From positions 1 through 28,964 of the forward strand of contig MU626495.1 in the NCBI GenBank assembly GCA_025603075.1: a stretch of DNA of 28,964 nt, given 5' to 3'. The notes under the pieces are model-generated. The model did not search any database. It was not told the origin of the DNA and saw only the letters and a list, made by a program, of their open reading frames with translations. Made by a program: the position numbers and the translations under genes. Source of the stretch: Neoconidiobolus thromboides FSU 785. Taxonomy: Eukaryota; Entomophthoromycota; Entomophthoromycetes; Entomophthorales; Neoconidiobolaceae. The stretch's first letter is position 1, and the number at the start of each line of letters is the position of its first letter. Positions 4,424-28,732 of the stretch are shown here, one piece after another.

Positions 4424-4530
4424 ATATGGGGATGTATTTTTGTGTTTAAGAGCTTTACTAATAATTTTTCCACTCGAATAGCACTTAAAGGATGGAAAAA
4501 GTAATGAAATTAGAAAAAACATCCCTATAT
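4424..4530 (+). mobile_element. Fold-back MITE-like element, copy 1
   Basis: The ends read ATATGGGGATGTATTTTT and AAAAAACATCCCTATAT. The inner palindrome runs TTTTTCCACTCGAATAGC / TTAAAGGATGGAAAAA. The long arm comes first; I call this orientation +. One base of the right terminus has changed (CCCT for CCCC). Confidence 0.75.
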
Positions 4531-5347
4531 GGAGTATGTTTTTTAGTATTTGATCAACAAAAAAGTTTTAATTTTACAGTGAACGCAAAATGAGTAAAAA
4601 AACAAAATAAGAGTGTTTCCAAATGGTTTTTTTTGATAGTTTGTGTTATATTCAGAATTTTAAAGTTTATTTAATTTTGTAATAGAAACATCATTATAAA
4701 AAAAACTCAATTTAATAAATGAAATGCCTGTATATTGAGTAGCATTCATTTCTATTTAGTTTAATTTAGTATATTAATTTTAACTTTTAATAGCTAAATT
4801 TTAAGGTTATTAATTAAAATTTAGCTGTGTGTAAGTCAACATTGAAGATTAAAAATATATTTACTTTATTTTGATCATTATTTGATTTTTATTGAACCAT
4901 TTTAATATCTCTTTTACCGTCATTTCCTATTACATATATTATTTACTGTCAAACACATGTTTAAAAACTTCTATACTGATCCTTTTGAAATCCTTCTAAT
5001 AAAATCGATAATTTATTACAAACCTACTATTCAACACATTAAAATTATTATTTACAATCAATAATAAATAAAACCCAAGTATTAATATAATAATCTCATT
5101 AGTTTTGATAGACGTTATTTACTAAGTAAATTAATATAAAAACATCAAAATGTTTGTTTTCTTTATAAACTATTAAGTAATATTAAATGAAATTAAAAAA
5201 CACTTAGTATTGACATTAATAAATATTATTATTCTTTTGGTTTTGTATTAATAAAATCAACACACCCTCACTATCTTACTTTTAAGATCTTTGAAATGAA
5301 TAGCTATTGAGTCTATTTATTTGAAAATTATTAAGAATCTAAATAAA

Positions 5348-5451
5348 ATATGGAAATGTATTTTCGTGTTTAAGAACTTTACTAATAAATTTTCCAGTCA
5401 TATAGTGATTAAAGATGGAAAAAGTAATGAAACCAAAAAACATCCCCATAT
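5348..5451 (+). mobile_element. Fold-back MITE-like element, copy 2
   Basis: Same family and same orientation as copy 1. The left terminus has decayed to ATATGGAAATGTATTTTC, while the right terminus AAACATCCCCATAT is intact. The AGCGCT centre is degenerate. Confidence 0.72.
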
Positions 5452-5592
5452 AGGGAAATATAAGAAAAAAACAACCAAAATTTTATTATTTGATAAATAA
5501 TTTATAATAGAAGATAGTGAGAAAAAGAGTGAGTTCCGCTCCTAATTCGCTAATATATAGTGTAATCTTGTCATCAAAGTGTAACACTGTTT

Positions 5593-6738: not shown

Positions 6739-8808
6739 TGTTATATATTATCACTACTTAGGTTGGTAAATAAATAAAGCTACTATATCTATTGTTTTGT
6801 TCACTGTGCCTCTATAATAAGAGTTTATTATAAGAGATAATAAATTAATATTAAATTAAAAGAGAGAAAGAAAGAATTCAATTAAAATTTTAAAGTATTA
6901 AAAATAAAAGAATTAGAAAGAGTGTAAAAATGAAGTATTTATTATAAATAATAATTTATTATTAGAATAATTAATTTTTAATAAACATTTTTAGCTTCAA
7001 GATGAGTTTTATGTAGGGTGGATATCCTTAGTTTAATAAAAAATTAGTTAAAGTTAAGCCTTGATATCAATTTTGACTTCTTTTAGTAAAACCTTTGGCT
7101 TTTAGTTAGTTTGAAACCTTATTTTTAGACGCTTTTTTAACTAACTTACTTTGAAAGCAATAAATTAGTTTTTTAAGTCAAACTCACAGAGGTTTTTATT
7201 CTTCAAATTCAACTATTTAGGCTTAATCAATAATTTTTTCTTTTTTAGTTAAATAATAATAATCTAATATAATAATTTTTTTAATCATTTATTAGATCAT
7301 TTTATTTTAAATTTTATAAATAATAATAATGAAAAAATGAAAAAAAAAACAATAGTTTATATATTTGAACTTATTTACTAGCTCAAGCTAAACGTTGTTT
7401 GATTTTAAAGTTTAAGCATCTTACAATGTTTATTCTTATAAGAAATTTCAAACTAAAACTATGATAAACCTTTTTTATAAGTCATTCAAATCAAGTACCC
7501 GCTATTTTTTTAAAATTATCTAAAAATGAGAGCAATTATTTTTGTAATTATATTAAAATTATCTAATAGTGGCTAAACTCTAGTTTTTTACTTTTTGTAG
7601 ATCTTTAGTATGAAGTTAATGTCAAAAAAAATCATTTTAAACTAAGATCTGTGATTTTTCTGTTTTACCTCATAATCGTATTTTATTTATTTATTGGTAG
7701 GTTAACTTTACGCCTACATTCATATTCGATTTAACTTGAAATCTGTTAGCTCAAACTTAGAGCTCTCATTTTGTTTTTTTGCTGAATAGAATTAAGAATT
7801 AGATTCGAGTTGTTGATATTAATGATTACTATGAAGACTTTTTAATTGCATAAATTTATCAACAACTTCAGTGATAATAACATTATAAGGATGCTGTAAT
7901 TTTTTTAAAAATTGATAAGTATATGACTACAGTAATAAAAATTTTACTGTAAATAAATTGATCTTTCTACATAAAACAAAGTGCTAATGAATAAAGTTTC
8001 AATATTAAATATCTAAAAAATAGAAACTAATGTTATAGTTAATAAAGTACTTTTTTTAATAGAATTTTAGTCATTAATATATTTACTAACTTAATAAGTC
8101 TCATTTGAATTCGATTTATTTTGACTATTATAATTATTTAAAAAAAGCTCAGTTGAAGAAACAAATCAAATTGAGTATCTCCCTACTGATCGTTTGATTA
8201 ATTTAATCTCTCTCTTACATCTCGCCTGTATCGTCGTACAATTGACTCTAACTCTTTTAACTTTTGCTTAATTCCTTCTTACTTTTAATGACAAAACACT
8301 TGGGATTTCTATCCTTTCAAGATTTAAAAAAAAAAGGAAAATAAATACAATATTTTTAACAATAAATAAATAAATCAAATAAACAAAGTATTATTGCAAT
8401 GAAGATTAAAAACTACTATGGCTAAGACTATAATGATATCTCTTATAAATTTCATATTGTTTGTTTTTGATTTATTAATTGTTAAAGATATCTTATTTCA
8501 GTTTATTCAGCTTTTTTTCTTACTATAGCCATGATAAGTTGAAAACAAGATGTCTAACACAGATAAGGTATGAATTTTATACTTTAATAGCTATTAGAAA
8601 AAACTATTGATATACGAATTTCCGATTACTATAAAAAGTAACAAATTAGGATGTTTTTTTTATTTCACTTTTTCTGTTTTTCTGAGCACTATTTAAGTGG
8701 AAAATTTATTAATAAAATTCAAACAAAAAAATACATTCCTAAATAATAATAAATAGTAAATAAAAACTAGAATAAAATATATTTTCAAATGAACTTTTTA
8801 TCAAACTT
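6739..8808. other. Intergenic region, no confident gene
   Basis: About 2 kb upstream of the Bni4-like gene and downstream of the arrestin-like gene. A less AT-rich, pyrimidine-rich stretch at about 8195-8330 precedes an 18-codon ATG frame at 8289-8345 (MTKHLGFLSFQDLKKKGK), too short to support as a gene. One degraded fold-back element lies at 8645-8744. Otherwise I see only AT-rich DNA. Confidence 0.5.
8645..8744 (-). mobile_element. Fold-back MITE-like element, copy 3 (degraded ends)
   Basis: The interior is clearly of the family: GGATGTTTTTTTTATTTCAC, then GAGCACTATTTAAGTGGAAAA and ATACATTCCT. The terminal ATATGGGG has decayed to AATTAGG. The short arm comes first, opposite to copies 1 and 2. 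Confidence 0.65.
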
Positions 8809-11321: not shown

Positions 11322-11392
11322 TGTCATTGGGGGGAATCGAACCCCCGCTATCGCGGCCACAACGCGGTGTACTACCACTATACTACAATGAC
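11322..11392 (-). tRNA. tRNA-His (anticodon GTG)
   Basis: The 71-base gene folds as a full cloverleaf. The acceptor GTCATTG/CAATGAC has seven Watson-Crick pairs with discriminator A. The D arm is GTAT/GTAC. The anticodon arm has loop TTGTGGC with anticodon GTG, and the T arm is GGGGG-TTCGATT-CCCCC. The last anticodon-stem pair (27:43) is C-A, the only mismatch. No intron is present. Eukaryotic tRNA-His starts at G1 and receives G-1 after transcription by Thg1, which fits this gene (the genomic base at -1 is A). Confidence 0.93.
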
Positions 11393-13829: not shown

Positions 13830-14589
13830 TTTAATAAATATTATTTACATGAATATAGTGGAAAATTTGCTCTATTCTATGGATACTCTTTGATCCAAGT
13901 AAAAAAATGCTTTTCGTTATATACAATAAAATTAAATAATAATACTTATTTAAGAGAATCAGGAAATAAGGCTTAAGAAAATGTTTTCTATTAACTTCAT
14001 TTCAATTAACAAAAATTAACAAGTCTGATATCATTACATTAGGTATAAAATGTCCACATACTTAAAAATTCAATTCAAAACGATTTGAACAAAGTGCGCT
14101 AAATACGAGATTAACAACGACCTTTTGAATCATTATGTGTGAAAAATAAAAATCAGATTCAATATAACATAAAGTCATTTATATTGACAATAGTTCTAAT
14201 TTATAAATTATTAACTCTTAATCATTAGTTGAAATTGAATTAAATAGAAAGAATTTTTTAAATTTTGAACTCCAAAATAGTGTATCTATAAATTAGATCT
14301 AAATAGTTATTTTTTGCTTTTTAATATTCAAAACTAATTCTATATAAGTGATCAATTCTTGTCAGCTGTATAATCAACCCAAAATCCAACCACCCGTGAT
14401 ACCTTTATACAGCACTACTTCAAAACATTTAAGCATTAATTATAAGGTAAAATGATCGAAAGATTAAACCTAGTAAAGTACTTTCTAATTTTTTAATAAA
14501 GAAAACTAATTTGATATTGAAATTTGGTCTCATATCTTGGTTGTATAATTAACTTGAATTTTGGCTAATTTGAGTAAAATTAAATGTCT

Positions 14590-14695
14590 AAATGGGAGTG
14601 TTTTTTTAATTTCATTTTTTTTTTCATTTTTTAAGCGCTATTTAAGCGGAAAATTTGTTAGTGAAATTCTTAAACACAAAAATACATCCCCAAAT
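14590..14695 (-). mobile_element. Fold-back MITE-like element, copy 4
   Basis: The short arm comes first. It starts AAATGGGAGTGTTTTTTT, the centre TTAAGCGCTATTTAAGCGG is intact, and it ends AAAAATACATCCCCAAAT. Both outer ATAT tetranucleotides have changed to AAAT in a matching way. Confidence 0.75.
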
Positions 14696-15578: not shown

Positions 15579-15680
15579 ATATGGGGATGTGTTTTATAAG
15601 AATTTTAATGATGGCTTTTCCACTTAAATATCGCGTAAAAGATGTAAAAAGTGATGAAGCCAAAAAAAACATCCCCATAT
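15579..15680 (+). mobile_element. Fold-back MITE-like element, copy 5
   Basis: The long arm comes first. Both termini are perfect (ATATGGGGATGT and ACATCCCCATAT). The flanks AAA and AAT show no long target duplication beyond the TA/AT bases at the ends. Confidence 0.8.
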
Positions 15681-16802
15681 AATTAAATTTGTTTTAATAT
15701 AATGATTATATCATTACTATTGTAAACTTACTTTAAAATTTAAGTAGAATATACAGATTGATCACTCTATACAGTGTTATTGATTAGTATACATTAACTG
15801 ATTTAATATGATTCAAAATACATACAAAAAGCATTATGCTAATAGGCACACTATTTTCAACCTAACTTTACTAGTTTTTTAATTTCCCCGAAGATTAGCA
15901 AAAATAGAGTTTAAACATGTTTAAAGATACTATCACTCACGCTGTCTATACTTACAGCATACATATTGGATTAAGATCCCAGGTATTTCAAACAATACAT
16001 TGTTGAGCAAGTGATGGGCTTGATGGGTTCTAAAACATATTTAATGCCTCTAATTAAAGATCAGCTATAAAAAGGTTTTCATGGAATAAATAAAGGATTT
16101 CTATTTAAGAAAGATATTTAGATATGATGAACACCTTAATCTATCTATACTAATTTACCCTTATTATGTTATTTTGAACTGTGATTTTTTTTGATTAGTT
16201 TGATTTTTAAAATTAGCCTTTTAGGTGTCAAATTATTTTAAAAAAAGGGCTGATTAGACTTAAATTTTTTGGCCAATTAAGCCCAAATTACATGAGTACC
16301 ACCTGTCCATGATTCTTGAGGGTAAAATATCATTTAACAACATAAATATTAGAAAAACGTATTTTTAGAAAAATTAAACCAAGTTGTTTTAAATTCTAAT
16401 TTTAGATTTATTTTAGCAAGGTTAGGGTTTTAATTTGAAGTTATTTTTATTAAAGCTTATTTTTTAATTTGATATTTATTTTATTACAAGTTAATTTTTT
16501 GAAATGAACTTTTAATCCTTAAACTAGCATTCAGCTTTATTAATTTTAATATTAAAAATAAAACTGCATTTATCAAAAATCAAAATTATAAATCAACTTG
16601 AATTACTATAAATTTAAAATATATATCTCATTTAACAAAGTAAAAACCTACATAATCAAAATAACTTGCAAAAATCGTTTTTTATAATACAACTTACAAA
16701 GTTTGATATTTTAACTTTTGAAACAAAGAATAGCTAAAGGTGTGTATAAAACACATATACATACATAATAAATAAAATAAATAAATCTTGATTTCCAATT
16801 CT

Positions 16803-21189: not shown

Positions 21190-21950
21190 AATTAAAATGG
21201 TAATTTAATTTTATATAATAAAAATTAACAATTAAGTTAGATGCTATTGTTGTATGAGTAATTGGATATTGTAGTTTTTATTTTAGTATCGGGTTTATTA
21301 TTTGTTTATTTGGAGTGTCAATTCATTTAGGAACAGAGATGATTTTAGCAAAGTGATTATTATCAATGTGAACAAGAGTACTTTAGGTTATTAGTAGTAT
21401 CGTTTAATTTTAACATAGCATAGCTTTAACTCTATTAGAGATTTAATACTGAGTTGACTGAATAATATAATAAGTTTTCACCTTTTTGATTAGAACTACT
21501 AATAATATAAACGAACTCGATATTTTTCTGATTGTTAATAAGCTATATGTATTCAATTAACATTGTCATGAGTAGTATTTGATTTTTTTTTAGAAGTATT
21601 AAATAAATAGTTAAAATAGTTTATTCATATTTTATCTCTGTTTTATTATTTACTATTGTAAAATAAAATTAGTAGAAAATCATAAAAATTATTATTACAT
21701 ATTTTTTAAAATTAAAATATAGATTTAAGCTTAGAAGTATAAAAGATAAATCGTGTGCTACTTGAAAATCTACACAAATACTAAGTGAAATCAAAAAGCT
21801 TGAAGGATGGAGAGGTTAAATATGCGTGGTAGTTTTTTATATGGCTCTGTTGTATGTGTTATGAGTAAAGCATGTAAGGTTTTATATAATCAAGTTACCT
21901 ATCTCAGAGATATAACCAAAGGGAATAATTAGTACTAATAAAAAAATTGT

Positions 21951-22026
21951 ATTTTTTTAGCTCCTCAAGAAATGATGCTCAAAACATCCTTTTAAAGTTT
22001 TGATTATATCTTGGAGCTAAATTTTT
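21951..22026. repeat. Imperfect 76-bp palindrome
   Basis: The left arm ATTTTTTTAGCTCC (21951-21964) is the reverse complement of GGAGCTAAATTTTT (22013-22026) with one mismatch. Pairing continues inward with gaps (AAGA..AT..AT..CAAAAC against its complement). The outer TTTAGCTCC differs from the ATATGGGG family, so it is a separate fold-back sequence. Confidence 0.6.
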
Positions 22027-22987
22027 CGATTAATATAAATCCTTGTGTATATTACAAGCATACCACATGCAACAGGATCTTAGAAAAAAACTCATACCCA
22101 TCCCCTCTAGCTCCTCCATTCTTCAAACTATTTGATATCCTCTCATAGTAATGATTTTCTAATGATAAATTAATTTTATACTTAGCAATCAATTATTTCT
22201 TAATTTAATTTTATATTCAAAAGAAAACAATTAACTGTAATACAATAAATTGCCCTTACGTTTAAAATTTTGCAAAAGCATTGTTTTGGTAATATATTAA
22301 TATCCTTAAAAAGCTCTGCAAAATGGCCTTTTTGGTATCATAGTTTATAATGGTTTTCCCAATGTTTTAATAATCTTTTTTATATTTATTACAAGAAAAA
22401 TTACATGGGCTAAAACAAGTTATAAATACATGTAGTAACTTACATACTTTATTATAAATATGCACATAAATCTGACATTTTCGCTAAAACTAAAATTTAA
22501 ATATATGGGTGTATCCCTTATTCGCCTAGCAAAGAATAGTTAGTATTATATTATATTTATTTCAGGATAGTTAAATATCATAGTTAATATAGTTATTAAG
22601 CTAGTACTCATTTTTGTTGGCTCTTAATATTGGATATTTAACTTAATAGATTATATTGATATGATAGGAATTATAAAGAATATGGTGTAATATAGAGTAA
22701 ATTACTATATGCCAACACTCTTGCATAAATTGACTTTTTAATTTAATAATCCCTTTGGGTTTGCTATTATTTTAAACAATTAAAGTTTTTCTTTATCCTG
22801 GCTGTTTTTGTAATTCAACTTATATCCTCATTGTACAAATCCATCACTCTCCATACCAAATATAAACCACCTTATGGACTTGAATGAAATTAATTGGGGT
22901 ATCACCAAATCTTATCGAAATGCTCAAATATAAATATAATACCCAAATTCAATGTACATAGTAATAGTTGAAATAAAAAATCTTAGC

Positions 22988-23093
22988 ATATGAGGATGTT
23001 TTTTTGGCTTCATTACTTTTTCCATCTTTTAAGCGCTATTTGAGTGGAAAAGCTATTAGTAAAATTCTTAAATACAAAAATACATCCCCATAT
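22988..23093 (-). mobile_element. Fold-back MITE-like element, copy 6
   Basis: The short arm comes first: ATATGAGGATGTTTTTTT, GGCTTCATTACTTTTTCC, centre AGCGCT at 23032-23037, end AAAAATACATCCCCATAT. It is close to the family consensus, with one change in the left terminus. Confidence 0.8.
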
Positions 23094-23421
23094 GGTAGCG
23101 ACTGTTTAGCAAATTAGTACTAAAGAGAAAAAGACTGCAGTGAGCAAAACAAATTGAAATAAGAACACATTATAATTTCATCTTGGAAACCAATTTTTGT
23201 TTTTCTTTTGTTTTTATAAACTCTATCATCAAAACCTTAAATGGCAAGCTTTCATGACATCAAATAGTAATAGCTTTAAATCCAAATGTCTTTCATCAAA
23301 TGATTGTATCCTAATAGCCTCTATGATTTAATATACAACCTCAAAAAGTTATAATAGTCATTGTAATATAATACTATATGATCATATAACTATAGGATAT
23401 TAAGTAAAAAATTTAAAAAAC

Positions 23422-23525
23422 CACTCGGGAGTATTTTTTTGACTTCATCAGTTTTTCCATCTTTTAAGCACTATTTGAGTAGAAAATTATTAGTAAAATT
23501 CTTAAAAAAATACATCTTCATTCAT
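23422..23525 (-). mobile_element. Fold-back MITE-like element, copy 7 (degraded ends)
   Basis: The interior GACTTCATCAGTTTTTCC, TTTTAAGCACTATTTGAGTA and TTAGTAAAATTCTTAAA matches the family well. The termini have decayed (CTCGGGAGTATTTTTTT at the left, ATACATCTTCATTCAT at the right). Confidence 0.65.
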
Positions 23526-24245
23526 TGCATTTTATACCTGAATTTGTATAAAAGCATTGAAGAATTATATTTAATTAAATATAGTACTAGAAATTATAAA
23601 ATACCTTCTATTAAATGCTTACGTTTTTTTTAAAGATCTTGAAGGAGCTTGAAAAACTCCCAAGTGTTTTATTAGATAGATTATTATTTATAATTTTTGC
23701 AATTTGCTTTTCTGATTAGTAGGGTTTTGTTTTTACAATTTGTTCGTCTAAATTTATTTATACTATTTACTCCAAAAACTGTAGCTACCCTAGAGATTAC
23801 TTATCTTCATAATTTGTTTATATTTCTTCTAATGATGGTAAGACAATTAAAAGACTTTGAAGCCTTCCAGACATTATTTCGCTATGTTACTGTCTAGCAT
23901 TCAATTTTTTATCTTGTTTTCTAAAGAATACAATTTAAAAATTTATGATTATATTTTAATTTTAGTATTGTTTATCTTTTACTATATAATATGCCTCTTC
24001 CCTTCCTTTGTTTTCAAGTTTGTATCTGAATTGTACTAAATGGCTTATTTGTTTATATATTTATGACTGTTTCTAACACTTTTTACACGCTAATGATGGT
24101 ATACATAGAAGAATCATTTGATTTAATTTCGTGTTCATTAACTCATTTTGTCTATTATATATTATTTGCTACTTAATATTAATTTATATTAAGCCAACTA
24201 AGTTTATACAACTTAGTGAATATGATCATATAAAAAGTCATGATT

Positions 24246-24252
24246 AAAAAAA
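24246..24252 (-). terminator. Pol III T7 terminator of the snoRNA gene
   Basis: Seven T on the minus strand begin directly after the closing CTC of the snoRNA stem. It is the only such run between the B box and this point, where a Pol III transcript should end. Confidence 0.75.
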
Positions 24253-24355
24253 GAGTTGCATCAGAAGGAAGGCATACTGGAAGTATCTGCATGATTGCCT
24301 CTCGTGAAAGAGGATTAAGACGCGTTTTACATCCAAAATTTTTCATCATAATCTC
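24253..24355 (-). ncRNA. snR52: C/D box snoRNA, snR52-like (18S A420-equivalent guide)
   Basis: The C box is ATGATGA (24349-24343) and the D box CTGA (24264-24261). A terminal stem GAG(A)TT/AACTC brings them together, giving about 103 nt. The ten bases before the D box, TGCCTTCCTT (24274-24265), are exactly complementary to the universal 18S segment AAGGAAGGCA. The D+5 rule points at the fifth base, A, which corresponds to yeast 18S A420, the known target of snR52 (counting from there places the next known site, A436, on an A as expected). The yeast SNR52 gene is the known Pol III-transcribed C/D snoRNA with A and B boxes in a leader, and the same layout is seen here. A second yeast snR52 guide, for 25S U2921, is not recognisable. 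D' and C' boxes are unclear; an internal hairpin CCTCT/AGAGG lies at 24313-24298. Confidence 0.82.
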
Positions 24356-24360
24356 TTTAA

Positions 24361-24421
24361 GCTGTACTGGGAATCGAACCCAGAGCGTCCAATTTAGTTT
24401 GAAGCGCTACCATTTGTACTA
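24361..24421 (-). promoter_or_regulatory. tRNA-like leader with Pol III A and B boxes
   Basis: The A box TAGTACAAATGG (24421-24410) and B box GGTTCGATTCC (24380-24370) match consensus at tRNA-like spacing. The T arm CTGGG-TTCGATT-CCCAG is perfect and the D arm nearly so (GTAC/GCGC). But the acceptor halves do not pair (TGTCAGC against TACAGCT) and the anticodon arm TTCAA/TTGGA closes a six-base loop, so this is not a functional tRNA. It looks like a former tRNA kept as an internal promoter for the snoRNA that starts six bases downstream. Confidence 0.75.
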
Positions 24422-24706
24422 GCTGACATAAAATATTATTGATATCGAAATTTAATATTTAATATATTTTAAGATTCAATAAGTGAACTTTTATTCCTTG
24501 TAATACTAAATTTTTGTTGATTACTATTAGTACTATTATAATAATGGTAGGCAAAATATTATCTTGATAAAAAAAAATAGACAGTATATTTGTAAAAATT
24601 TCAAGATTGAAATATTTAATGTTTTGAAAACAACCAAATTGTTCTATTATAAGCTTTTTAGAATAGCTCATTAATTTTTCTAATATTATAAATAGGACTA
24701 TAATGT

Positions 24707-24812
24707 ATATGGGGCTGTTTTTTTTAGTTTCATTATTTTTCCATTTTTTAAGCGTTATTTATGTGGAAAAATTGTCAGTAAAATTCTTAAATACAAAAAT
24801 ACATCCCCATAT
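24707..24812 (-). mobile_element. Fold-back MITE-like element, copy 8
   Basis: The short arm comes first: ATATGGGGCTGTTTTTTT, TTTTAAGCGTTATTTATG towards the centre, end AAAAATACATCCCCATAT. One base change in the left terminus (GCTG for GATG). Confidence 0.8.
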
Positions 24813-25559
24813 AGATCGTTATAATCATATAAATGTCTATTTAACAGTTTTTTGACTTAAACGAATAACAAGTTATCCAAGTTACATATAAAAATAAATA
24901 TTTTAAAAAAGACAACCATGGTTTTTACTTTTGAAATTTTCTTAGCGTTTTTTAAAATGCAAGTATTTAATTGTATAGAGTAAAACTAATTTAGACATTC
25001 TTATATGGATGATAAGTACCAAAAAAAATTCAAGTTACTAAGTTAGTGATTAAGTTTTATTCATATTCCATATAAAATAGTTCAGTTGTTTTGTCTTTTA
25101 AATATTTAAAGTTAAAAGTACCTCGTTTTTTTATTTATAACTTAACATGGCCTGAAAAATATAGCTAATTGATAAAACCAATGAATAGCAACCATTGGAG
25201 ATATAAAACTTATAAATTTTATAATGTTAGTGCTTTTAGTCAAATCAGAAAATCATTTTTGGCTTTATCTTTGGCAGCAATGATTTCTTTATGCTTGCTT
25301 TAATAAAATATTATCGATAATGTTTTTGTTACAAAATTTGAGCTTTTTGCAATAGATGCTATCATTGTAGGGATCATATTTTCTAAAGAAATAAGATATG
25401 TTAAATATCAATCAAAGGTAAAAAACATCAATGATAAAATTTAATTGTTAGTTTAATTTATCTTTTTATTTTATAGTAAACGAGCTTATAGTATTTGAGC
25501 TAAGCCTATATGATTTATCAGATAGATGTATAAGGGTAATCAGTGTGCTTTGTGTGAAT

Positions 25560-25655
25560 GTATGGGGATGTTTTTTTTTGCTTCATCACTTTTTCTATCT
25601 TTTAAGTGGAAAAATTGTTAATAAAATTTCTAAGCCTAAAAACACATCCCCATAT
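25560..25655 (-). mobile_element. Fold-back MITE-like element, copy 9 (internal deletion)
   Basis: The termini are GTATGGGGATGTTTTTTT and AACACATCCCCATAT. The centre is shortened: TATCTTTTAAGTGGAAAA lacks the usual GCGCTATTT, giving 96 bp against about 105. Confidence 0.75.
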
Positions 25656-26562
25656 TTTACCTTACGCCATGTAAATGTGGGAACTAATTAATGTTATGTT
25701 TATGACTATTTGAGCATTGGTATTATATTTGGTTTTATGACTTGTTGAATGTTAACTTAGCAATTATTTCTATTTAAAATAAGTTTATTGATTGGCGAAT
25801 TTGACCCATAACAGTACAATTAATAGCGAAATTTTAACAAACATAGTAAAAATCTTAAATTAGAATTACCTTATAAATTAGAAGAAACTGTAATATAGAA
25901 CACTCATTTCAAAGAATATCAAAATGTGGCTATATATTTAATGAGGAAATAACATTGAATTGAATGGTCCATAGCGCATCAGACTGGTTTACTGCTTTTG
26001 TATAGTATCAGAGTATGTCAATAAAAACTTAGTCACTTTATCACTCAAAATAATAACTAAAAACAAAACATTTTATCAAAATATTTTTTGAAAAGTAATC
26101 GAATTTCAAAAATATGAAGATAAACTTTAGGGATAGACTTCGATAACTATATACAGGCTGATGCTTCTTTTAGGCATCTATATTCACCAAAACATTAAGT
26201 AGCTTGGTACCGTAAGTTCATCATCAAATATTTTTTTGCTCAATCTGGTTAATATAACACCTGTAATTAATCAGAAAATGGATCAGTAATACTGTTGTGT
26301 TTAAGTAGTACTCGCTCTTCAAACTTTTTAGCCCCTATGTATATTCCACACTCTTCACAAAGCTTAGAATTTATTTTAATTTAAATAGGGTATTATATTC
26401 TTTTCTCAATAGTTTGACTTGATCATATTAAATAAATCGGCGTTTATAATTCGCGCAGCTACGGCTATAAATACTAATAGATCAATATTAATATATATTT
26501 ATTTGCTTGAACTAATAAAGTACAAAACCACTTAAGCAACATCTAGAATATAGAAAATACAC

Positions 26563-27782
26563 TTATAAAGATTCTATTGGGTTACTAAACGTCTCATCAT
26601 TGTCATGGTTATTATCAATATTGATAGGATTTACACTTTCGTCTAAAGTTGAATTAATTATATTCAATTCTATAGCAGGTTGATTAACTAAAAATATGTA
26701 AGCTTATATAAATATACAAATAAGCGTACTACCATCTTTTTTCTCATTGTTTTTTATAACCTTGATTTTATAAAGAACAGCTTTGACTGCATCGTGAACT
26801 GTGGGATCGCAACAAAAGGCAGTAAAATTTAATGCGCCAATAAGTGGATACGTGATAATAGTCATTCGATCCAAAATAATACTCCCTTTGTCACTAAAAT
26901 CAAAATAAATTTGAGACACGATACTTGCACTGTGAGTTATTAACATGGATATAGGATACAATAATCTATAAAATCAATTATTTGAAATATTAACAAATTA
27001 ATAAATAGATACATCCTGTAACCCAATAGCCTTATAGCTTTGATAGTTTTGAGTGTAGACTCTGAATTAGTGTTTAATTTACGAGAGCCAATTAGAACAG
27101 CTCCCCGGCTTAATCTTACACATATAATAATGACAATAACACTAAGATAAATGAGTGTTAATAATCTCCAAAGCTGGGTTGCGAAAAAATCGAAAATTTT
27201 CATATAGCTTTCATCCCCAGCCTCTGCAGCAACATAACAGCCAGCATAATCACTATAACCAAGTTTACCCAAAGCTAATTTCGTGATTAACAATCTTTCC
27301 AAAACCAATATTATACTTACCAAGTGGCGGAAGTGAGATTAAAAGTGAGATTATTATAGGAACTAACCAATATGCCATTTCAATTTTTTTGGTGATTTGA
27401 ACATTGTGAATGAAAACTAACTGTAAGTTTACAGCAATTGATACGTTTATAAATGAATCAAATGCTGTAATTGCTAATAAATTCCAGCCAAAGAAAGTAC
27501 AAAGTGAACTAGGGCCAGTTGCATAAGGCGTTCTCCATAATGATCCACTATGTAACCAAAGAGCATAAAATGCTAATCCAGTTTGTAATCTTAAAGACAC
27601 CCGATCTACTAGTTTATGGTCATAAATAGCTAAAAAAAATGAGTAAAAAGAAAGTAAAACAACATATAAATACATATTCCGATCATAAATAAAACTACAA
27701 GTAATGCCAAAAATGCAGAGACATAAGAAACATTTGGAACATATTTTTCAGATAATAAATCATTAAGTGGATCAGTCTCCAT
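26563..27782 (-). CDS. Seven-transmembrane G-protein-coupled receptor (fungal cAMP-receptor/Git3-like), five exons
   Basis: Exons are 27782-27674, 27629-27321, 27274-27013, 26965-26733 and 26687-26563. The four introns are 44-47 bp, GT-AG, all phases agree, and the protein has 345 residues. Seven hydrophobic helices lie at about 19-39, 47-65, 80-110, 121-141, 168-192, 222-247 and 258-279. C80 at the start of TM3 (SSLCTFFGW) and C152 in loop 2 (YAGCYVA) could form the usual disulfide. DRVSLRLQTG opens TM2, and RLLGYRILLYPISML opens TM6, both in the style of fungal cAMP-receptor-like/Git3 receptors. NVS at 17-19 is a possible extracellular N-glycosylation site. The cytoplasmic tail (280-345) is short, rich in N, D and S. 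Role by family: plasma-membrane nutrient or ligand sensing through a heterotrimeric G protein. The ligand is unknown. Without splicing it would appear as three short ORFs. Confidence 0.82.
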
Positions 27783-28732
27783 TTCAAGGGAAGATTTCTG
27801 TCAAATCTGTGTTAAGTATTTATACAATGTAGTAAGCTAACTATTTTTTAAAAAAAATAAAAACATGTAATTGTCCTCAGTATTTATACCTTCAGTGTTA
27901 CACTTAATCGATAAAGTCTTTAAAACATTTCCTACCTATAAGTATATTTTACTTGTGACAGATTTTATAAACCAGTTTATTTTTTGATACATTTGTAAAG
28001 GCAGGTTTAAATCGAGTTAAAACTGTCTTGCACAAGTTAATCCAGTAGATTTTTTAATTTGAAAAAAAATAAAAAATAAAAAAGGTTGTTCCTTTTATAA
28101 CATAAAAAGAGCAATCAATTATATGGGGGTGTTTCTTTGGCTTCGTTATTTTTTCCATCTTTTAAGCACTGTTTGAGCAGAAAAACTATTAGCAAAATTA
28201 TTAAACAAAAAAATACATCCCCATATAATGATATATCTTTTAAGAATTGACAAAATGCTAAAGTAATTTCTATAAAAAAATTTTGAACTAACAAGATAAT
28301 CTATTATTTTTTATAAATTACTTAGATTTTTTTAAATTTTAAAAAAATACAATTGAAGTAAATTGAGTTAAAAAAGCATTACGTTAAAAAAAACTGAATA
28401 TAGAATATAAAATATAAAAAGTAATATTTATTAGTTTGTTTTAATATAAAAGCTAATAAATATTGGTTTAGTCTTAACATTAACTTTAGCAGCCTTAACT
28501 TTAATTTTTAATTTATAATTTTTATTGTAATTTTTATAAATAAAATATTTAAAAAATATTATTATCATTTAATATTTTTTTATTAGATCATTTTAAAATA
28601 CTCATAAATGACTATAAATTCAGCTTCAAAGCTTTAAATTTTTAAAATTTTTATTTGATGGTTTAACTATTAGAAAATAGTATAAAATTTATTTGGCTTT
28701 TTGTTTTTAAATAAATGCTTGGCTGCTTTTAA
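27783..28732. other. Intergenic region upstream of the receptor gene
   Basis: The promoter side of the receptor gene, then AT-rich DNA with one fold-back element (28121-28226). No gene is supported up to the transposase-like fragment at 28733. Confidence 0.5.
28121..28226 (-). mobile_element. Fold-back MITE-like element, copy 10
   Basis: The short arm comes first: ATATGGGGGTGTTTCTTT, GGCTTCGTTATTTTTTCC, TTTTAAGCACTGTTTGAGC, end AAATACATCCCCATAT. One base of the left terminus is changed. Confidence 0.8.

Follow-up and report, generated by a model that had tools for sequence, protein, structure and literature searches.

For dicistronic tRNA-snoRNA genes of plants, PMC2780460, PMC8351944 and PMC7671301 cite a 2003 paper by Kruszka. 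In these genes a cut by RNase Z at the 3' end of the tRNA reportedly frees a C/D snoRNA; the tRNA in these genes is tRNA-Gly. SNR52 of Saccharomyces cerevisiae is a Pol III gene according to PMC5356446 and PMC7277114, the latter of which names snR52 as the sole yeast snoRNA made by Pol III. PMC2926782 has SNR52 of Candida albicans bound by Pol III, PMC5014426 lists the Yarrowia gene among Pol III genes, and PMC12455662 calls the yeast SNR52 promoter the main one for yeast guide RNAs. For C. elegans, a 2008 study of the UM2 loci proposed that the leader is a tRNA remnant acting as the snoRNA promoter, and pointed also to plants, Drosophila and yeast (PMC2527325).

The window analyzed here, a stretch of 28,964 nt, belongs to a fungal genome assembly of 23.1 Mb in 392 contigs. 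Among named sequences, those of Entomophthora muscae (67%) and Conidiobolus coronatus (57%) matched its mitochondrial uL5 gene (1395-2192) best, and protein relatives suggest a position in Entomophthoromycotina; the fungus is probably entomophthoralean. The reading that we prefer, with a probability of roughly 0.7, is that the single snR52 gene found in this genome is a Pol III type 2 unit whose transcribed leader is most likely derived from a tRNA.

The original prediction had described A and B boxes, a T arm, a C/D snoRNA and a run of 7 T on the minus strand, and direct reading confirmed each of these at its coordinates. The order on that strand is A box, B box, T arm, C box, D guide, D box and T run. 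The covariance search bore out the naming of the snoRNA as well: minus-strand positions 24358-24253 matched RF00335 (snoZ13/snR52) in the Rfam search of the window with 48.4 bits, a narrow pass over the cut-off of 47 (E 1.5e-6), and the runner-up family, RF01185 (snR75), reached 24.4 bits against a cut-off of 40. The features that mark members of RF00335 were all found by Rfam alignment and position, namely the C box ATGATGA (24343-24349), the D box CTGA (24261-24264) and, between them, the conserved D guide TGCCTTCCTT (24265-24274). A probable C' box, ATGCAGA, can be read directly at 24286-24292. The ends of the snoRNA form a stem of 6 bp between AAAGAG (24358-24353) and CTCTTT (24255-24250), counting the first three T of the presumed Pol III terminator (24246-24252), which follows the snoRNA directly; pair probabilities for this stem were 0.5-0.86 in the folded transcript. 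Judged by family score and conserved boxes, the identity as snR52 is correct. Among the matches listed for the whole genome, with 54 of 2433 candidates scored, this was the sole match to RF00335, and a whole-genome DNA search with leader and snoRNA together recovered this locus alone and no second copy. Stray relatives were also considered and rejected; a viral-contig scan with the 16-mer of guide plus D box gave 11 stretches, and in the 140 nt upstream of these no C box was present in any of the 11.

The 66 nt from 24359 to 24424 on the same strand make up the tRNA-like leader, which is presumably transcribed. It adjoins the snoRNA without a spacer, the two boundaries meeting at 24359/24358. 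The A box TAGTACAAATGG (24410-24421) differs at 2 positions from an 11-letter consensus, which is that of yeast, and the B box GGTTCGATTCC (24370-24380) is perfect. The boxes are 41 nt apart, start to start, which is tRNA spacing. With both boxes lying in a leader 5' of the snoRNA and a T run past it, the layout is the Pol III type 2 layout of the yeast kind.

A different origin of the transcript was weighed, in which the snoRNA would be intron-encoded or made by Pol II and the tRNA-like stretch would be an unrelated neighboring tRNA pseudogene. There is a precedent in Neurospora crassa, whose CD42 is, like the present gene, an snR52 orthologue but is listed as intron-encoded in PMC2780460. 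However, no stop-to-stop frame of at least 100 aa was found at about 21,200-26,900, although short exons are still possible there, and the surroundings are AT-rich. The leader, with 45.5% GC compared to 18.1% and 23.7% in its flanks, abuts the snoRNA, and the T run comes directly after it. Given these features, we regard an intronic or Pol II origin as very improbable.

How much of a tRNA is left in the leader was assessed by scoring and by folding. The prediction of a leader that is still visibly a tRNA did not hold up in tRNA-type scoring, where the leader reached 14.7 bits compared to a cut-off of 29 (E 4.1 when 501 b were searched with all families) and ARAGORN called no tRNA. With its D stem unformed as well, the leader falls outside what these measures accept as a tRNA gene. 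A DNA search of the genome with the leader alone returned neither a second copy nor a tRNA. The predicted succession of D, anticodon and T arms stood in part. The T arm (24367-24383) is complete, with a 5-bp stem, CTGGG/CCCAG, and a 7-nt loop. The anticodon-like arm (24388-24403) has its 5 bp, TTCAA/TTGGA, yet its loop has 6 nt and not 7; in the folded transcript it sits in a hairpin of 4 + 5 bp with one bulge. The D stem did not stand; by direct reading it has 3 of 4 pairs, with one G-T pair and one A-C mismatch, and its probability in the folded transcript was 0.0. Acceptor pairing had been described as lost, but pairing at the base of the leader is not simply gone. In place of acceptor pairing is a closing stem of 8 bp, in which AGCU (24424-24421) and GUAC (24419-24416), separated by a bulged A (5' strand 24416-24424), pair with GUACAGCU (24360-24367) with probabilities of 0.83-0.96. 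The T stem had probabilities of 0.99 for the three inner pairs, 0.63 for the next and 0.1 for the outermost, the last being low because one base is common to the T stem and the closing stem. The leader as a whole is predicted to fold as a domain separate from the snoRNA.

These elements were compared with shuffles that left the 12 nt of the A box and the 11 nt of the B box in place and permuted the remaining 43 of the 66 letters, the structure tests having been devised once the structure was known. Of 20,000 shuffles, 4.6% gave a T stem of 5 bp, 10.1% gave an anticodon-like stem of 5 bp, and 75 (0.375%) gave the two jointly. The closing stem and T stem together make a helix of 12 bp, the maximum of the measure, equalled in 70 of 20,000 shuffles (0.35%); tRNA-Gly likewise scores 12 bp. 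Plain fold z-scores were modest (-1.94 for 66 nt and -1.55 for 72 nt), and 3.8% of 3,000 box-preserving shuffles folded equally well. The leader is more tRNA-like than its A and B boxes demand.

Seventeen isoacceptor types, called by ARAGORN in 261 kb of sampled DNA and without representatives of Ala, Val, Leu, Phe, Tyr, Trp, Met and Gln, served as references for the question of which tRNA the leader resembles. The best alignment was to tRNA-Gly(UCC), with a score matched by 1.2% of 3,000 box-preserving shuffles when any of the 17 types was allowed and by 0.37% of 3,000 against Gly alone. Under an alternative scoring with fewer tRNAs the Gly lead was narrow (21.0 vs 19.5 for Asn). The 17-mer of the T arm occurs at 11 sites in the genome, the leader and 10 others, and all 10 of those are tRNA-Gly(UCC) genes. 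However, the B box sequence is found in other sampled tRNAs too (His and Glu), so that the Gly signal comes down to three pairs of the T stem that lie outside this box and may therefore be chance. The alignment and the T arm suggest that the leader perhaps descends from tRNA-Gly(UCC). The window also carries an ordinary tRNA-His(GUG) gene on the minus strand (11322-11392, 65.8 bits).

The A and B boxes could have arisen, or been kept, for TFIIIC alone in a Pol III type 2 leader, with any further likeness to a tRNA due to convergence or chance. A score far below the tRNA level, a D stem missing from the predicted fold and a narrow link to Gly of three base pairs outside the B box count against our preferred reading and favor this alternative, as does a yeast leader (PMC6191481) that has the boxes without a full T stem for the latter. 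The shuffles argue the other way, in that the T and anticodon-like stems together, or a 12-bp helix, so seldom appear around fixed boxes. We consider an origin for TFIIIC alone unlikely, though worth serious thought, and descent of the leader from a tRNA gene probable on its combined stems and boxes.

Heads of SINEs typically carry A and B boxes together with a decayed tRNA body. The leader resembles such a head, and it could be a piece of a tRNA-derived repeat inserted upstream of the snoRNA. Against this, neither DNA search, with leader plus snoRNA or with the leader alone, found a second copy in the genome, and the neighboring dispersed repeat at 24684-24812 excludes the leader. Of the histories considered, insertion of a SINE piece is the one to which we give the least credence.

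That dispersed repeat is MITE-like, about 100-130 nt long with ends ATATGGGG/CCCCATAT, and besides the copy named above it is present in the window at 4424-4537, 5348-5453, 8645-8741, 14588-14694, 15579-15690, 22964-23094, 23423-23520, 25559-25655 and 28098-28226. There were 116 matches in 312 kb, a few of which are one place counted once per strand. Of 69 copies in 222 kb, 15 lay no more than 300 nt from a tRNA or the snR52 gene where 7.5 would be expected at random, in DNA chosen mostly for its tRNAs and with any intergenic preference uncontrolled.

If the tRNA-derived Pol III unit is the correct reading, TFIIIC would be recruited by the two boxes in the leader, and Pol III would start about 10-20 nt before the A box, transcribe the leader and then the snoRNA, and end in the T run. 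The leader would fold on itself into the 12-bp helix of closing stem and T arm, capped by the 7-nt T loop. A cut at 24359/24358 or directly beside it would then remove the leader, perhaps made by RNase Z as in the plant tRNA-snoRNA pairs, and in the predicted fold both the 12-bp helix and the boundary fit processing of that type. The leader helix extends to 24360 and the snoRNA model starts at 24358; a cut between them would part the two, freeing a snoRNA with the pairing ends AAAGAG/CUCUUU. By its conserved D guide, the mature snoRNA would guide 2'-O-methylation of 18S rRNA in this species. The D guide of N. crassa CD42 is listed for 18S Am417 in PMC2780460. No 18S or 28S rDNA for guide pairing was found in the sampled loci, nor in the genome with two 15-mers of the 18S target region; the first had 0 exact matches, and the second, with up to 1 mismatch allowed, had 2 one-mismatch matches whose flanks are unlike rDNA. 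The rDNA repeat may be absent from the assembly.

The U6 and SRP RNA genes of this fungus showed a different upstream architecture. They have in common CCCAYAAGG at -62/-63 and TAAAAACATA from -16/-17 relative to the Rfam match, with 52 of 74 upstream positions alike between U6 and SRP, and none of 5,000 shuffles did as well. The shared upstream element lies at 1426-1500 on the plus strand of sampled loci L077 and L080 and, in L078, upstream of U6 at 1609-1501, where U6 is on the minus strand. CCCAYAAGG occurred 4 times in 325 kb scanned, and 3 of the occurrences are these sites. The element resembles an external Pol III promoter of the PSE type, here in a fungus that diverged early. CCCAYAAGG is absent from the window; therefore, snR52 seems to be on a promoter type unlike that of U6 and SRP RNA. 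There was no tRNA-type B box on the plus strand of the SRP locus. The RNase P RNA gene (sampled locus L062) has a weaker upstream CCCACAATG. That RNase P RNA might have a leader of the tRNA type was considered and rejected; neither strand of its 3.3-kb locus gave a B-box match.

Compared to S. cerevisiae SNR52, a gene of a very distant lineage, the present gene has the same snoRNA family and, likewise, A and B boxes placed in a 5' leader that is not part of the mature RNA. In the yeast SNR52 promoter of PMC6191481, 3 of 5 T-stem positions pair, only the innermost of them contiguous from the loop, whereas all 5 pair in the present leader. That yeast leader has A-like motifs 44 and 104 nt before the B box. 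We had entertained the idea that it was without tRNA spacing and dropped it over the motif at 44 nt, and box spacing therefore does not separate the yeast leader from ours. The UM2 loci of C. elegans (PMC2527325) are alike in having a tRNA-like A/B motif that lies upstream of the snoRNA within a short-lived primary transcript, a T-run end and a proposed tRNA remnant; however, they are many, compared to one locus in the fungus, and come with expression data. The original prediction also placed this leader as an intermediate between tRNA-snoRNA dicistrons and the yeast leader, but the entomophthoralean lineage lies off the line to yeast.

The plant dicistronic genes share with this locus a tRNA sequence immediately before a C/D snoRNA, but their tRNA is intact and functional, which the present leader is not. 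A search for other tRNA-snoRNA pairs (a C box starting within 60 nt and then a D box) gave none among 62 distinct tRNA genes for which 200 nt or more of downstream sequence was available, a set in which Lys, Asn, Gly and Arg are heavily represented.

As an snR52 gene, the locus is one of ordinary function and moderate evolutionary interest. A text search that covered few subscription papers gave, among the matches listed, no description of an snR52 transcribed by Pol III outside Saccharomycotina. Yeast snR52 genes under Pol III and nematode leaders proposed as tRNA remnants have already been published; the novelty appears to lie in the distant lineage and in the extent of tRNA form retained. 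A bolder history, which we hold to be doubtful, is that snR52 was transcribed by Pol III before the split of Entomophthoromycota and Dikarya and began as a tRNA-Gly-snR52 dicistron, that the 12-bp shape of acceptor plus T arm was kept but rebuilt from former D-stem letters, and that tRNA-maturation enzymes would make the 5' end of the snoRNA even though the tRNA is dead. A more tRNA-like snR52 leader in so distant a lineage makes the origin of this promoter testable through the leaders of early-diverging fungi, and the present leader is a possible case of a dead tRNA surviving as both a promoter and a processing signal.
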